A stretch of 39,176 nt of DNA, taken from Bacteroidales bacterium. GTDB taxonomy: Bacteria; Bacteroidota; Bacteroidia; Bacteroidales; UBA932. The notes below the pieces were generated by a model. That model had not been told where the DNA came from. It did not search any database and worked only from the letters and a program-made list of their open reading frames with translations. Positions 28,169-33,003 of the stretch are shown here, piece by piece. The position numbers were made by a program, and so were the translations under genes. Location: NCBI GenBank assembly GCA_017560825.1, contig JAFZED010000005.1, forward strand, positions 1 through 39,176, given 5' to 3'. How positions within the stretch are numbered: the first letter of the stretch is position 1; each line of letters begins with the position of its first letter.

Positions 28169-28732
28169 ATGATTACAAAAGCTAAAGAAATTCTGGCAGC
28201 TGCCAAGGACAAGATGGGGCACGCTGTAACTCACCTTGAAGAGGAACTCAAGACATATCGCGCAGGAAAGGCAAACCCACTTGTATTCAACAATGTGATG
28301 GTAGACTACTACGGAAGCCCTACTCCGGTTCCACAGGTGGCATCTGTGACAACTCCTGATGCAAAGACCCTTATGATCCAGCCTTGGGAGAAGAAGATGA
28401 TTCCGCTCATCGAGAAGGCTATCCTCGATGCAAACATCGGCCTTACTCCATCTAACAACGGCGAGTCTATCCGCTGCACAGTTCCACCTCTTACTGAGGA
28501 CCGTCGTAAGGAGCTCATCAAGAAGGCAAAGGGCGCAGGTGAGACTGCAAAGGTGAGCGTACGTAACGCACGTCGTGACGCTATCGAGCTTCTTAAGAAG
28601 GCAAACAAGGACGGAATGCCTGAGGACCTCCAGAAGGAGTACGAGCAGCTCGTTCAGAAAGAGACAGACGCATTCTCAAAGAAGGTTGAGGAAGTTGTGG
28701 CTGCGAAGGAAAAAGAGATGATGACTGTTTAA
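28169..28732 (+). CDS. frr: Ribosome recycling factor
   Basis: 187 residues, the normal RRF length. The three-helix-bundle and beta-domain signatures are LKTYRAGKANPLVFNNVMVDYYGSPTP, MIQPWEKKMIPLIEKAI, GLTPSNNGESIRCTVPPLTEDRRKEL and VRNARRDAIELLKK. With EF-G it splits post-termination ribosomes. No terminator follows before the aromatic operon leader, so pyrH-frr transcripts may read into it. Confidence 0.97.
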   Translation: MITKAKEILAAAKDKMGHAVTHLEEELKTYRAGKANPLVFNNVMVDYYGSPTPVPQVASVTTPDAKTLMIQPWEKKMIPLIEKAILDANIGLTPSNNGESIRCTVPPLTEDRRKELIKKAKGAGETAKVSVRNARRDAIELLKKANKDGMPEDLQKEYEQLVQKETDAFSKKVEEVVAAKEKEMMTV

Positions 28733-28750
28733 TTTTAAGACATTTTTCTA

Positions 28751-28758
28751 TATATTTG
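28751..28758 (+). promoter_or_regulatory. Candidate -7 element of the aromatic amino acid operon
   Basis: TATATTTG, a full TAnnTTTG match in an AT-rich stretch, ending 8 nt before the leader-peptide ATG. The mRNA would then be nearly leaderless. No -33 TTG is visible, so read-through from frr is an alternative source. Confidence 0.45.
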
Positions 28759-28766
28759 TAACCGTT

Positions 28767-28829
28767 ATGGGAACTTATCGATTTAGCAGCTTCGGTTTTT
28801 ATAGCTTCTATTTCCAGAAAAGGGGATAG
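28767..28829 (+). CDS. Phe/Tyr-rich leader peptide (pheL-like)
   Basis: A 20-codon ORF, MGTYRFSSFGFYSFYFQKRG, ending in TAG. It has five Phe and three Tyr, and residues 4-16 hold 8 aromatic residues out of 13. Shortage of charged tRNA-Phe or tRNA-Tyr would stall a ribosome here. It lies directly upstream of a terminator hairpin and the Phe/Tyr biosynthetic operon. It has no Shine-Dalgarno, as is usual here. It is too short for normal gene calling. I know of no described homologue by sequence. The assignment rests on composition, position and the RNA folds around it. Confidence 0.85.
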   Translation: MGTYRFSSFGFYSFYFQKRG

Positions 28830-28896
28830 GCCGGATGCTGCGTGTCGAATAATATAGAATTTGATTTATGCTGTCCGGTGTAAGCCGGACAGTTTT
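28786..28896 (+). promoter_or_regulatory. Transcription attenuator of the Phe/Tyr operon (competing RNA stems 1:2, 2:3, 3:4)
   Basis: Region 1, GCAGCTTCGG (28786-28795, inside the leader codons), pairs with region 2, CCGGATGCTGC (28831-28841), with a single bulged T and one G-T pair. Region 2 CCGGA (28831-28835) can instead pair with TCCGG (28874-28878) in region 3, extended by wobble pairs. Region 3 (28871-28878) pairs with region 4 (28885-28892) as the terminator. Region 2 begins 1 nt after the leader stop, so a terminating ribosome would cover it and favour termination. A ribosome stalled on the Phe/Tyr codons would cover region 1 and free region 2 for antitermination. Confidence 0.78.
28871..28896 (+). 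terminator. Attenuator terminator hairpin before pheA
   Basis: CTGTCCGG (28871-28878) and CCGGACAG (28885-28892) form a perfect 8-bp GC-rich stem with a 6-nt loop, followed by TTTTATTAT. It ends 18 nt before the pheA ATG. Confidence 0.85.
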
Positions 28897-28913
28897 ATTA
28901 TATAAGTAAATAT

Positions 28914-29744
28914 ATGAAGAAGGTAGCGATTCAGGGAGTGAAAGGTTGCTTCCACGAGCAGGCGGCTCGTCTGTTCTATGAGCAGAGCGAGGGTGTGGTT
29001 CCGGATATATGCGAGTGCTCTACGTTTGACAGTCTGTACAGCAGTGTCGAGGCTGGTGATGCGGATGCTGCGGTTATGGCGATAGAGAACACTGTGTCCG
29101 GAGGATTGCTTCCGAACTTCGAACTCCTCAGAAAGTACGACCGCAAGATCAAGGGAGAGGTGTTCCTGCGTATTCAGCAGAACCTTATGGCCCTTCCCGG
29201 TCAGACAATCGAGGACATAAAGGAAGTCCGCACGCATTATATGGCGATCAACCAGACCCGAGAGTTCTTCAAGAACTATCCGTGGATAAGGCTGGTGGAG
29301 TCGGAAGACACCGCAAAGAGTGCTGCGGAAGTGGCGGCGGAAGGCCTTATGGGCGTCGGAGCTGTGGCGTCGACGCTGGCCGCAGAGCTCTATGGGCTGG
29401 AAATATTGGCCGAAAGTATAGAGACCTACAAGCAGAACTTTACAAGGTTCCTCGTTCTTGATGATTCCATCCAGGTGGACAAGTCCAAGGTGAACAAGTC
29501 TTCGATGTGCTTTACTCTTTCACACACTCCGGGATCGCTGGCTCACGTGCTGACCATCCTGTCGTTCTACGGTATGAACCTTACCAGGATCCAGTCCCTC
29601 CCGATTCCTGGGCAGGAGTGGCAGTACTTCTTCTATGTGGACATAAAGTTCCAGGACTACCTGCGTTATGAGCAGGCTCTGGCGGCAGTGCGTCCGTTGA
29701 TGGAGGACCTCAACATCCTCGGTGAATATGTAGCATCTATATAA
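28914..29744 (+). CDS. pheA: Prephenate dehydratase with ACT domain
   Basis: 276 residues. It converts prephenate to phenylpyruvate, the Phe branch. It is monofunctional, as no chorismate mutase domain precedes it (that activity is on the DAHP synthase fusion downstream). The PDT domain begins KVAIQGVKGCFHEQAA, continues with AVMAIENTVSGGLLPNFELL, and has the catalytic-site TRF motif in NFTRFLVL (Thr near 177). The C-terminal ACT domain (about 194-276) has GSLAHVL and RIQSLPIPG where GALxxxL and ESRP are usual for Phe binding. Allosteric Phe control may therefore differ. It is the first gene after the attenuator. Confidence 0.94.
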   Translation: MKKVAIQGVKGCFHEQAARLFYEQSEGVVPDICECSTFDSLYSSVEAGDADAAVMAIENTVSGGLLPNFELLRKYDRKIKGEVFLRIQQNLMALPGQTIEDIKEVRTHYMAINQTREFFKNYPWIRLVESEDTAKSAAEVAAEGLMGVGAVASTLAAELYGLEILAESIETYKQNFTRFLVLDDSIQVDKSKVNKSSMCFTLSHTPGSLAHVLTILSFYGMNLTRIQSLPIPGQEWQYFFYVDIKFQDYLRYEQALAAVRPLMEDLNILGEYVASI

Positions 29745-29751
29745 GGAATAT

Positions 29752-30930
29752 ATGATAAGACCGGCAAAAAGGACAGAAAGTGTCCAGGAGTATTACTTCT
29801 CAAGGAAACTTAAGGAGATAGCACAGATGAACGCCTCTCGCGCAGAGGCGGGGGAAGACCTTGTGATCAACCTTGGAATCGGCTCGCCTGACGGTATGCC
29901 TCCAATGGATGCTGTCGAGGCTTTATGCGGTAGCGCTGTGGAAGCTGGCAATCACGCCTATCAGAGTTATGTGGGTCTTCCCGAGTTGAGGAAGGCGTTT
30001 GCTGACTGGTATGCCCGCTGGTATGGTGTTACTCTTGATCCGGCAAAGCAGATCCAACCGCTGGTCGGCTCAAAGGAGGCTATCCTACTTATATCCCTGA
30101 CTTATCTTGACAAGGGCGACAAGGTGCTCGTGCCTGATCCGGGCTATCCTACTTATTCTTCGGCTTCCAAACTTGTTGAGGCTGAAATCATACCGTATGA
30201 TCTGAAAGAGGAAAACGGATGGTGGCCTGACTTTGACGCCTTGGAGAAGATGGATCTTAGCGGAGTCAAGATTATGTGGACAAACTATCCGAATATGCCT
30301 ACAGGTGCTCCAGCGTCGGAGGAACTCTACGCAAGGCTGGTCAAGTTCGGAAAGGACCACGACATACTGATATGCAATGACAATCCCTACAGCTTCATCC
30401 TGAATGACAGGCCGCTTTCAATCCTGGCTCAGCCGGGTGCGATGGACTGCTGCCTCGAACTGAATTCCCTCAGCAAGGCACATAATATGGCCGGATGGAG
30501 AATTGGAATGGTGGCTGCCCAGGCCGAGGTCATCTCGCAGATTCTGAAGGTGAAGAGCCAGATGGATTCGGGAATGTTCAAGCCTTTGCAGCTTGCTGCT
30601 GTCCAGGCTCTGAAACAGGGGCCGGAATGGTTCAGGGAACTGAATGAGGAATACCGCAGAAGGCGTGTGCTGGCAGGTGAGATTTTCGACCTGATCGGTG
30701 CCGCTTACCAGAAGGACAGCACAGGAATGTTCCTGTGGGGCAAGGTGTCGGAAGGAACTGGAGAACAGGTTTCGGACAGGCTCCTCTATGAGGCGGGAGT
30801 GTTCATCACTCCGGGCTTCATATTCGGAAAGAACGGCAGTCAATATATACGCATATCCCTGTGTGCCAAGCCGGAAATATTAAAGGCTGCAGCCGAACGA
30901 ATATCAGCAGTGCTTTACGCAACCGCCTGA
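29752..30930 (+). CDS. Class I/II PLP aminotransferase, probable aromatic aminotransferase
   Basis: 392 residues of PLP fold type I. The PLP-binding Lys is in LNSLSKAHNMAGWRIGM (Lys242). Other family segments are INLGIGSPDGMPP, YQSYVGLPELRKAFADWY, VLVPDPGYPTY and ISLCAKPEI. Relatives are annotated as aspartate or LL-diaminopimelate aminotransferases. Its place between pheA and tyrA, 7 bp after pheA, suggests it transfers the amino group to phenylpyruvate and hydroxyphenylpyruvate to give Phe and Tyr. Substrate is inferred from context only. Confidence 0.88.
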   Translation: MIRPAKRTESVQEYYFSRKLKEIAQMNASRAEAGEDLVINLGIGSPDGMPPMDAVEALCGSAVEAGNHAYQSYVGLPELRKAFADWYARWYGVTLDPAKQIQPLVGSKEAILLISLTYLDKGDKVLVPDPGYPTYSSASKLVEAEIIPYDLKEENGWWPDFDALEKMDLSGVKIMWTNYPNMPTGAPASEELYARLVKFGKDHDILICNDNPYSFILNDRPLSILAQPGAMDCCLELNSLSKAHNMAGWRIGMVAAQAEVISQILKVKSQMDSGMFKPLQLAAVQALKQGPEWFRELNEEYRRRRVLAGEIFDLIGAAYQKDSTGMFLWGKVSEGTGEQVSDRLLYEAGVFITPGFIFGKNGSQYIRISLCAKPEILKAAAERISAVLYATA

Positions 30931-31008: not shown

Positions 31009-31893
31009 ATGAGAATCGAGAGTATGAAGACAATAGGAATAATAGGATTGGGTCTGATCGGAGGATCGATGGCGGTCGATCTAAGGCGCAGGGGCTTTGC
31101 CGGCGAGATAATCGGAGTCGAGGCGGAGCCGGTGAACGCTGCGGCCGCTTTGAAGATGGGCCTGGTGGACCGTATCGTGGATCTGAAGGAATGTGTTCAA
31201 GAGAGTGATGTGGTCATAGTGGCTGTGCCTGTAGGGGCGGCAACAGGTCTCCTTCCACAGGTACTGGACTGGTTTTCAGTTTTTGCACAAAGGGATGGAG
31301 ACTGTAAGAAGGTGGTGATGGATGTGTGTTCTACCAAAGAGCAGCTTGCATCCTGTGTAAATGGACACCCGTTCAGAAACAGATACGTGTCTACGCACCC
31401 TATGGCAGGAACCGAGTACAGCGGCCCGTGGGCAGCGATGGCCGGGCTTTTTGACGGCCACGCCTGCATCATATGCGCGGCGGAGGACTCAGCTCCGGAC
31501 GCAGTAAGGATGGCGGAAGATATATATGACACATTGAATATGAGGGTAATATATATGGAGCCCTCAGCTCACGACGTCCACGCCGCATATGTGTCTCACA
31601 TATCACATATCACCTCCTTTGCCCTTGCCCTGACGGTTCTTGAAAAGGAAAAGGACGAAAAGCACATCTTTGACCTTGCGTCAGGAGGCTTCTCGTCTAC
31701 AGTGCGTCTGGCCAAGAGCAGCCCGGATATGTGGACGCCGATACTGTCACAGAACAAGGACAATGTCCTTCACGTGATGGACACATATATAGAAAAAATG
31801 CAGGCTTTCAGACAGGCAATCGCAGAAGGTAATGAAGCGCAGGTGCGTGACCTGATCGAAGAGGCCAACAGGATAAGAAGAATAATAAGATAA
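31009..31893 (+). CDS. tyrA: Prephenate dehydrogenase
   Basis: 294 residues from the ATG at 31009. The ATG at 31024 starts MKTIGIIGLGLIGGS, the usual TyrA opening, and may be the real start. NAD(P)-dependent oxidative decarboxylation of prephenate gives 4-hydroxyphenylpyruvate, the Tyr branch. The Rossmann loop is GLGLIGGS, and VVIVAVPVGA, VMDVCSTK and the catalytic STHPMAGTEYSG follow, then AYVSHISHITSFALA. No fused chorismate mutase or ACT domain is present, so end-product feedback by Tyr would have to come from elsewhere, for example the attenuator. Confidence 0.94.
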   Translation: MRIESMKTIGIIGLGLIGGSMAVDLRRRGFAGEIIGVEAEPVNAAAALKMGLVDRIVDLKECVQESDVVIVAVPVGAATGLLPQVLDWFSVFAQRDGDCKKVVMDVCSTKEQLASCVNGHPFRNRYVSTHPMAGTEYSGPWAAMAGLFDGHACIICAAEDSAPDAVRMAEDIYDTLNMRVIYMEPSAHDVHAAYVSHISHITSFALALTVLEKEKDEKHIFDLASGGFSSTVRLAKSSPDMWTPILSQNKDNVLHVMDTYIEKMQAFRQAIAEGNEAQVRDLIEEANRIRRIIR

Positions 31894-31902
31894 CATAAAG
31901 AT

Positions 31903-33003
31903 ATGGCAGTCAATAGTTTTGAAATCATCCCTATGAATGAGTGGGGATTGTTTACCGACCCGAAACCGAGTGTAGTGGCCGGACCGTGCAGTGCGGAATC
32001 AGAAGAGCAGGTTCTCGAAACAGCGAAGCATCTGAAAGAGACAGGCATCAATGTATATCGAGCAGGTATATGGAAACCGAGGACGCACCCCGGTTCGTTT
32101 GAAGGCGTCGGAGCGGAAGGCCTGGCGTGGATGCAGCGTGCCAAGAAGGAATACGGATTGAAGATAGCCACCGAAGTGGCAAGCCAGAAGCACGTTGCCG
32201 AGTGTCTGAAACACGGTGTGGACCTCGTATGGCTTGGAGCCAGGACAACTGTAAACCCATTCCTTGTCCAGGAGATTGCGGATGCATTGAAGGGTACTGA
32301 CATCCCTGTGCTTGTGAAGAATCCGATAAATCCGGATCTTGACCTGTGGATAGGAGCCTTGGAGCGTCTCAGCAGAGCAGGTATCAAGAAGCTGGGTGTT
32401 ATCCATAGAGGATTCTCGACTTTTGATAAGATCAAGTACAGGAATGACCCGCAGTGGCAGGTGGCTATCGAGCTGCGCAGCCGTTACCCTGAACTGCCTT
32501 TCTTCGTGGACCCAAGTCATATGGGAGGAAGCAAGGACTACATCAGGGAGATCAGTCAGAGATCTCTTGACCTTGGTTTCGAGGGCCTTATGATTGAGGC
32601 ACACTGCAACCCTGCAGTAGCTTTGAGCGATGCGAAGCAGCAGCTTACACCTGCTGAGCTCGACGACCTTCTTTACAGACAGATCACAGTCCGCGACGCC
32701 GACTCGGATGCTCCGGAGTGGAAGGACAACATCGATCAGCTGCGTGCCAAGATAGACGTGATAGACGAGAACCTCCTGTATGCCTTGAACTCAAGAATGA
32801 AGGTCAGCAGCCAGATAGGAGAGTACAAGAAGAACAATAACATCGCCATCATCCAGGCGGCCAGATGGGATGTCGTGATGGCAAAGGTTATGGAAAAAGG
32901 AAAGGAATACGGCCTTTCGGACAAATTCCTCAGCACTGTCTTCGCCGCCATCCACGAGGCGTCTGTGGACGTTCAGAATGAGATTATCTCAAAGCAGAAA
33001 TAA
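31903..33003 (+). CDS. Bifunctional DAHP synthase (type I-beta) - chorismate mutase (AroQ)
   Basis: 366 residues. Residues about 1-260 are a KDO8P-synthase-like DAHP synthase (VVAGPCSAESEEQVLETA, YRAGIWKPRTHPGSFEGVG, VLVKNPINPD, FFVDPSHMGGSKDY, MIEAHCNPAVALSDAKQQL). It condenses erythrose 4-phosphate and PEP, the first shikimate-pathway step. Residues about 270-366 are an AroQ-type chorismate mutase (IDQLRAKIDVIDENLLYALNSRMKVSSQIGEYKK), which makes prephenate for pheA and tyrA. In related fusions the mutase domain also mediates feedback. It is the last gene of the operon, 9 bp after tyrA, and its final 20 bp overlap lpxK on the other strand. Confidence 0.94.
   Translation: MAVNSFEIIPMNEWGLFTDPKPSVVAGPCSAESEEQVLETAKHLKETGINVYRAGIWKPRTHPGSFEGVGAEGLAWMQRAKKEYGLKIATEVASQKHVAECLKHGVDLVWLGARTTVNPFLVQEIADALKGTDIPVLVKNPINPDLDLWIGALERLSRAGIKKLGVIHRGFSTFDKIKYRNDPQWQVAIELRSRYPELPFFVDPSHMGGSKDYIREISQRSLDLGFEGLMIEAHCNPAVALSDAKQQLTPAELDDLLYRQITVRDADSDAPEWKDNIDQLRAKIDVIDENLLYALNSRMKVSSQIGEYKKNNNIAIIQAARWDVVMAKVMEKGKEYGLSDKFLSTVFAAIHEASVDVQNEIISKQK

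Follow-up and report, generated by a model that had tools for sequence, protein, structure and literature searches.

The region of interest lies within a 39,176-nucleotide stretch of DNA, referred to below as the window, from a genome that is 77% complete and belongs to a Bacteroidales genus; five close relatives are recorded as Candidatus Cryptobacteroides. The genes follow one another in the order pyrH, frr, leader, pheA, aminotransferase, tyrA and DAHP synthase/chorismate mutase fusion. The first structural gene, pheA (prephenate dehydratase, 28914-29744, + strand), scores below the curated cut-off of its best NCBIfam model, and the fusion gene (31903-33003, +) also scores below curated cut-offs. 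For the aminotransferase (29752-30930, +), the nearest models are those of LL-DAP aminotransferases, with scores below their cut-offs, and tyrA (31009-31893, +) encodes prephenate dehydrogenase. The four genes presumably form a single operon. Phe and Tyr, the products of the downstream genes, are also the amino acids specified by the codons of the leader.

The gap between the stop codon of frr (28732) and the ATG of pheA (28914) holds a promoter box (28751-28758), a 20-codon leader (28767-28829) and a terminator (28871-28896). The leader ORF, MGTYRFSSFGFYSFYFQKRG, runs on the + strand from the ATG at 28767 to a TAG stop at 28829 and contains five Phe and three Tyr codons; it is supported by the sequence and by close relatives. 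Against a background of 6.8% Phe+Tyr in eight window proteins, eight or more Phe/Tyr residues in 19 codons have a probability of about 2e-5 per ORF, uncorrected for the number of short ORFs. Four further segments of the + strand, termed regions 1 to 4, were delimited by folding. Region 1 (28778-28796) comprises 28786-28796, with the letters GCAGCTTCGG at 28786-28795, and an outer stem of 28778-28782 with 28844-28848; it covaries with region 2. Region 2 (28830-28841; letters CCGGATGCTGC, 28831-28841), located one nucleotide past the leader stop and supported also by relatives and spacing, can pair with either region 1 or region 3. Region 3 (28871-28879; letters CTGTCCGG, 28871-28878), likewise supported by relatives, is the 5' arm of the terminator or the partner of region 2. 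Region 4 (28885-28896), supported also by covariation and a terminator scan, is the 3' arm of the intrinsic terminator with its T-tract (letters CCGGACAG, 28885-28892, then T's to 28896). A conserved hairpin formed by the last leader codons and the stop codon (CUAUUUCC / GGGGAUAG, 28808-28829, +) is nested inside the 1:2 structure.

An initial annotation of this DNA had described the 20-codon ORF with its five Phe and three Tyr codons, a stem 1:2 (28786-28795 with 28831-28841), a region 2 starting 1 nt after the leader stop, and a terminator with a T-tract at 28871-28896 followed by pheA. All of these parts are present where it placed them, and the presence of a leader, alternative hairpins and a terminator before pheA is confirmed. 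The 2:3 pairing that it drew between 28831-28835 and 28874-28878 exists but is longer, with 7 pairs (28830-28836 with 28873-28879) and an inner stem; the hairpin at 28808-28829 and the promoter box were absent from its list. It had also suggested folding the region, and the whole leader folds with a z-score of -4.30. Taken in isolation, the 1:2 state has a predicted energy of -29.0 kcal/mol (z -3.35), the antiterminator -18.5 kcal/mol (z -3.40) and the segment with the terminator -21.6 kcal/mol (z -5.37). Among three terminator-like sites on the + strand of 28600-29000, the leader terminator is the strongest (10 pairs, 6 GC); the two weaker ones lie inside pheA.

The promoter box TATATTTG (28751-28758, +) is of the Bacteroidota type TAnnTTTG, a consensus assigned to the -7 region in the available portion of PMC7366714, and it ends 8 nt before the leader ATG. 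Given a box at the -7 region and this 8-nt gap, the 5' UTR would be about 5 nt or less. Among 71 distinct relatives, the gap is 8 nt in 33 and 9 nt in 4; in 5 more, which have two ATGs side by side, the gap to the first of them is 8 nt, making 42 in all. In another 25 the gap is 10-52 nt, and 4 lack a box, including L016, for which only 5 nt of upstream sequence exist. In the order-level sample described below, a box is found at 50 of 69 leaders, with gaps of 9-36 nt. Where the box ends 8-9 nt before the ATG, the leader mRNA is probably almost leaderless, its exact 5' end being predicted from the position of the promoter; read-through from frr would yield a second, longer leader RNA. Messages of this type are uncommon in the phylum: according to the published text available, 5' UTRs of <10 nt make up about 3.7% in B. 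thetaiotaomicron, and leaderless mRNAs have been put at 5.5% in F. psychrophilum.

Transcription attenuation by a translating ribosome is a textbook mechanism, and the arrangement found here suggests how it would operate at this locus. RNA polymerase would start a few nucleotides before the leader ATG, and a ribosome would initiate on the almost 5'-terminal AUG. With ample Phe-tRNA and Tyr-tRNA, the ribosome would reach the stop codon and cover region 2, allowing the 3:4 terminator to form. With either Phe- or Tyr-tRNA scarce, it would stall on a Phe or Tyr codon and so sit on region 1. Region 2, just past its leading edge, would then pair with region 3, and the polymerase would enter the pheA-aminotransferase-tyrA-DAHPS/CM genes. 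Without a translating ribosome, 1:2 would form and 3:4 would terminate transcription. Translation of the leader, stalling and regulated read-through are what we infer from the nucleotide sequence.

Conservation was assessed in a close set of 110 pheA loci, consisting of the best 80 of 173, the best 29 others from the genus and the window's own; the two underlying searches share some contigs, and the genus of the best 80 is unstated. A pheA match is present in 51 of the 61 genomes of the genus, with the weaker matches falling outside the set of 110. A leader was defined as an ORF of 12-30 codons with an ATG start, located within 600 nt upstream of pheA, in which Phe+Tyr number 5 or more and make up no less than 28%. 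Such an ORF precedes pheA at 81 of the 110 loci (72 of 100 when distinct PheA proteins are counted). Removal of 11 duplicates, of L092 (without region 3 behind a longer ORF) and of L093 (no T-run in range) left 68 distinct sequences, with leaders of 16-21 codons and 5-9 aromatic residues. Phe and Tyr account for 550 of their 1277 residues (43%, as opposed to 6.8% in the eight window proteins), a fraction biased upward by the selection rule, which itself demands these residues. Independent of that rule is the similarity of the peptides, RFSxxGFYxFYFQKR and kin. The TTN codons of the 68 leaders are exclusively TTT or TTC, never TTA or TTG, and region 3 reads GCTGTCCGG in 74 of 80 close loci, duplicates included. 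In view of these relatives, a chance origin of the window element is untenable.

Base pairing was evaluated in an alignment of the 68 distinct sequences by counting paired cells against 500 shuffles; a column-pair screen of stem 1:2 proved too noisy and was replaced by these counts, in which cells are sequences rather than independent events. Stem 1:2 is paired in 79.9% of the cells, 56 of which are double-changed versus 19.0±7.6 in the shuffles (0/500), with two of five covariation measures not above the shuffles (double-change pairs, 88/500; pair types, 191/500). The terminator 3:4 is paired in 95.8% of the cells (50 double-changed versus 4.1 shuffled, 0/500), and the hairpin over the last leader codons in 97.1% (15 versus 4.9, 0/500). 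For the antiterminator 2:3, 93.2% of the cells are paired versus at most 58.9% when the register is slid, with no covariation among the 68 close relatives because both sides are nearly invariant; this conservation could stem in part from the need of region 3 to pair with region 4. In all 68, a stem 1:2 of 7 or more pairs and a 2:3 pairing of 5 or more are predicted. In a synonymous-codon control, the native leaders folded with region 2 more stably than their recoded versions, although the signal was modest, with z<0 in 63 of 68 and below -1.64 in 20 of 68. The compensatory changes that the initial annotation proposed to look for are seen in stems 1:2 and 3:4 but not in 2:3, which is paired yet nearly invariant.

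The spacing is equally constrained. In all 68 close relatives, the last aromatic codon starts 18-22 nt before region 2 (18 or 19 in 55), and the leader stop codon lies 3-9 nt before it. A ribosome reaches about 12 nt beyond its A-site codon, so a ribosome stalled at a Phe or Tyr codon would leave region 2 free, while one at the stop codon would cover it. The sequence features by which we recognise an attenuator were all found: an aromatic-enriched leader ORF, an intrinsic terminator between leader and pheA, a protector stem 1:2 that overlaps the ORF in the close relatives, an antiterminator 2:3 mutually exclusive with terminator 3:4, and a stall and stop-codon spacing suited to region 2. The initial annotation would have given up its reading had the codons or stems proved unconserved in close relatives; Phe/Tyr codons, stems, terminator and spacing are all kept.

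A leader was not found at 29 of the 110 close loci. At six of them (L005, L006, L017, L024, L029 and L076), the leader and regions 1 and 2 are missing and the terminator behind frr is kept; given the well-supported branches of the pheA tree, this state must have changed no fewer than 4 times. At L005, the hairpin is immediately preceded by a TATATTTG box. At most of the remaining 23 loci, judged by eye, pheA begins at or shortly after the end of the reading frame before it.

To the order as a whole we applied the same reasoning to upstream regions of pheA. A covariance model of the element had been tried as a measure of breadth and was dropped in view of its low scores outside the genus (29-42 bits for the matches listed from the order). 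In the source genome it recovers the window copy with 127 bits and one 31-bit match (G000:C57:28090-28175, L141), which has no Phe/Tyr-rich ORF and is probably only a terminator; among 30 matched loci that were inspected (L112-L141), seven outside the genus have Phe/Tyr-rich leaders with a hairpin and T-run behind them. A pheA match was found in 88 of 198 Bacteroidales genomes, and 83 upstream regions were examined, with the window genome (G000), G107, G238, G338 and G339 left out; the 83 include L212, with only 15 nt of upstream sequence, and L142, from the genus of the window. An aromatic-rich leader is present at 69 of the 83 loci versus 10 of 83 on the reverse strand. Of 86 leader candidates, 81 have a terminator behind them, and each of the 81 outperforms 95% or more of its dinucleotide shuffles, which hold a terminator in 10% of cases on average.

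A region 2 complementary to region 3 at p≤0.05 was detected for 70 of these 81 leaders, and not for 11, with a 45-nt search; a narrower search, from 15 nt before the leader stop, was significant for 43 and not for 38. The paired sequences vary by lineage yet stay complementary (GAGCGGGA/TCCCGCTC, ACGGGATTTTAT/ATAAAATCCCGT, GGGGCTT/GAGCCCC), a kind of variation that the close relatives do not offer. This is no proof by itself, because region 2 resembles region 4, and some of the complementarity may derive from shared ancestry of the two arms. In long-tailed leaders of Bacteroidales, region 2 lies inside the ORF, and across the order region 2 follows the last aromatic codon at a median distance of 15 nt (43 cases, narrower search). 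A class-level set of 70 matches, minus G000 and five repeats, contributed 61 loci from other orders and 3 extra loci from Bacteroidales. All 3 of the latter have a leader, as do 37 of the 61 from other orders (3 of 61 on the reverse strand), where a terminator accompanies 41 of 43 candidates and a significant 2:3 pairing 32 of the 41. In leaders of some other lineages, Trp codons occur within or beside the Phe/Tyr run, at L152, L154-L156, L220, L221, L228, L254 and L258, perhaps in connection with an operon that also contains the first enzyme of the common aromatic pathway.

Taken together, the data make it very probable that, as the initial annotation proposed, the window element belongs to the trp/phe/his-leader kind of ribosome-mediated transcription attenuators and senses charged Phe- and Tyr-tRNA: close relatives have kept its codons, stems, terminator and spacing, and the same layout is met again across the class. 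It might be supposed that the hairpin at 28871-28892 does no more than end transcription of the upstream pyrH-frr unit, the short ORF being incidental: frr ends at 28732, the interval from there to pheA yielded no second terminator, and the six close loci that keep a terminator behind frr but have no leader attest that the hairpin can exist alone. Conservation of the leader codons, the covariation of 1:2, the fixed spacing of region 2 and the recurrence across the class of the leader-terminator-pheA arrangement all speak against this, and we regard it as quite improbable.

Slightly less credit still is given to a leader that acts on the translation of pheA, or via Rho or another protein, instead of through the intrinsic terminator. 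A covarying GC-rich hairpin with a T-tract stands before pheA, and the distance from the leader stop to pheA ranges from 61 to 479 nt among relatives, which is ill-suited to sequestration of the start; other routes of control by a leader ORF do exist, with Rho, for example, considered for mgtCBR in the accessible part of PMC3641672. A tRNA- or ligand-binding element (T-box or riboswitch) would account for a structured 5' region ahead of an amino-acid operon. We consider it the least plausible explanation, hardly worth entertaining, as conservation is explained by the ORF and neither the window nor 9 related loci gave a match that reached the gathering score of any Rfam 15 family. The Rfam 15 families presumably include the amino-acid leader and T-box families. 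A sensitive Rfam scan of 28700-28960 returned seven matches far below gathering scores, with no riboswitch or T-box among them, and a phage search gave no match.

While the attenuator of the window is a single unit, two leader-terminator units in series precede pheA at 13 of 83 Bacteroidales loci and at 4 of 61 loci from other orders (L143, L144, L148, L155-L158, L176, L184, L193, L217-L219, L233, L256, L272 and L289). None of these 17 loci has a TAnnTTTG box between the two leaders, and 10 have one before leader 1. The 2:3 pairing reaches significance in the first unit at 13 of the 17 loci and in the second unit likewise at 13, with both significant at 10 loci; L272 is weak throughout. Two qualifying ORFs were found in 17 of 83 order-level regions on the forward strand versus 3 of 83 on the reverse strand, so without regard to terminators a few doublings could be due to chance. 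A single leader RNA with two leader ORFs is also known from Salmonella mgtCBR, which responds to ATP and proline and whose stem-loops, as described in the accessible part of PMC3641672, are unlike intrinsic terminators; the doubled Bacteroidia loci instead have two Phe/Tyr leaders, each with its own terminator. That text presents the mgtCBR tandem leaders, with their different signals, as a singular example, and a single literature search turned up no description of same-signal attenuators in series.

Uncontrolled scans of other amino-acid operons of Bacteroidales covered 22 of 25 hisG loci and 19 of 28 loci of the trpE family (PF04715). His-rich ORFs precede hisG at 16 of the 22 (L294-L315), and Trp-rich ORFs lie upstream of trpE-family genes at 15 of the 19 (L319-L337), of which L331 and L333 look like chance cases. 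Many of the His- and Trp-rich ORFs have a terminator-like hairpin behind them, and L304 and L325 appear to be doublets. Judged by these sequences, the window element probably belongs to a family of amino-acid attenuators in the order.

The pheL, trpL and hisL leaders of Proteobacteria consist of a codon-rich short ORF, alternative pairings and an intrinsic terminator. The window element resembles them in its short ORF rich in codons of the regulated amino acids, its exclusive 1:2, 2:3 and 3:4 pairings, its intrinsic terminator and its stall geometry, and differs from them in its lack of an Rfam match, its mixed Phe and Tyr codons, its very short 5' UTR and its occurrence in Bacteroidota. A leader ORF at the 5' end of the transcript, in a leaderless-mRNA attenuator, has been described for trpL of Sinorhizobium meliloti (PMC7298713, in the portion available), an alphaproteobacterial system that responds to Trp rather than Phe/Tyr.

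Attenuation has also been studied comparatively by Lopatovskaya and colleagues, in work that may include Bacteroidetes. In the open-access literature, leader-peptide attenuation in Bacteroidota is met with in passing mentions (PMC9723704 and PMC7366714, as far as their text is available). The accessible text of Guerin et al. 2021 (PMC9723704) refers to strong clues to leader-peptide attenuation before amino-acid operons, which it leaves unnamed, and to a 5' element of pheA that is conserved among Flavobacteriaceae, Flavobacterium psychrophilum included. The latter concerns the same gene and phylum as the window element and is known by its description, which in that text gives no leader sequence, Phe/Tyr codons or alternative stems. 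Similarly, sORFs reminiscent of leader peptides are mentioned for B. thetaiotaomicron in the available part of PMC7366714. The initial annotation was not aware of any description of such an element, and this holds in so far as we found none of a Phe/Tyr leader in Bacteroidales among the matches listed from open-access full text; it has to be qualified by the clues and the pheA 5' element of PMC9723704. What is probably new here is a Phe/Tyr leader of known mechanism, its nearly leaderless start and, elsewhere in the class, the same-signal series form.

On balance, although with distinctly less assurance than for the attenuator itself, we favour the view that leader-peptide attenuators are old and class-wide in Bacteroidia (for Phe/Tyr, and in Bacteroidales for His and Trp as well), that they run on leaderless or nearly leaderless mRNA in the close relatives of the window, and that they were doubled in several other lineages into same-signal series needing two stalls. 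If true, this would imply that transcription and translation are effectively coupled as early as the first codon, in a phylum where initiation is not led by Shine-Dalgarno sequences. The window element itself would place a well-defined, testable coupling-dependent switch in gut Bacteroidales. It could serve as a natural reporter of whether ribosomes closely trail RNA polymerase in Bacteroidota and of initiation on leaderless or nearly leaderless messages, and the doubled forms of other families pose the question of what advantage a series of two same-signal attenuators has over a single one.

Two minor features of the leader region may be added. Between regions 2 and 3 of the window, a short AU-rich stem (28844-28865) is predicted in both the terminator and the antiterminator folds, and an ATATA motif is common at this position in close relatives. 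Upstream of the leader promoter, a GTCATTTCGAG stretch that looks like a dispersed repeat recurs at L004, L007, L011, L013, L015, L021 and L022.
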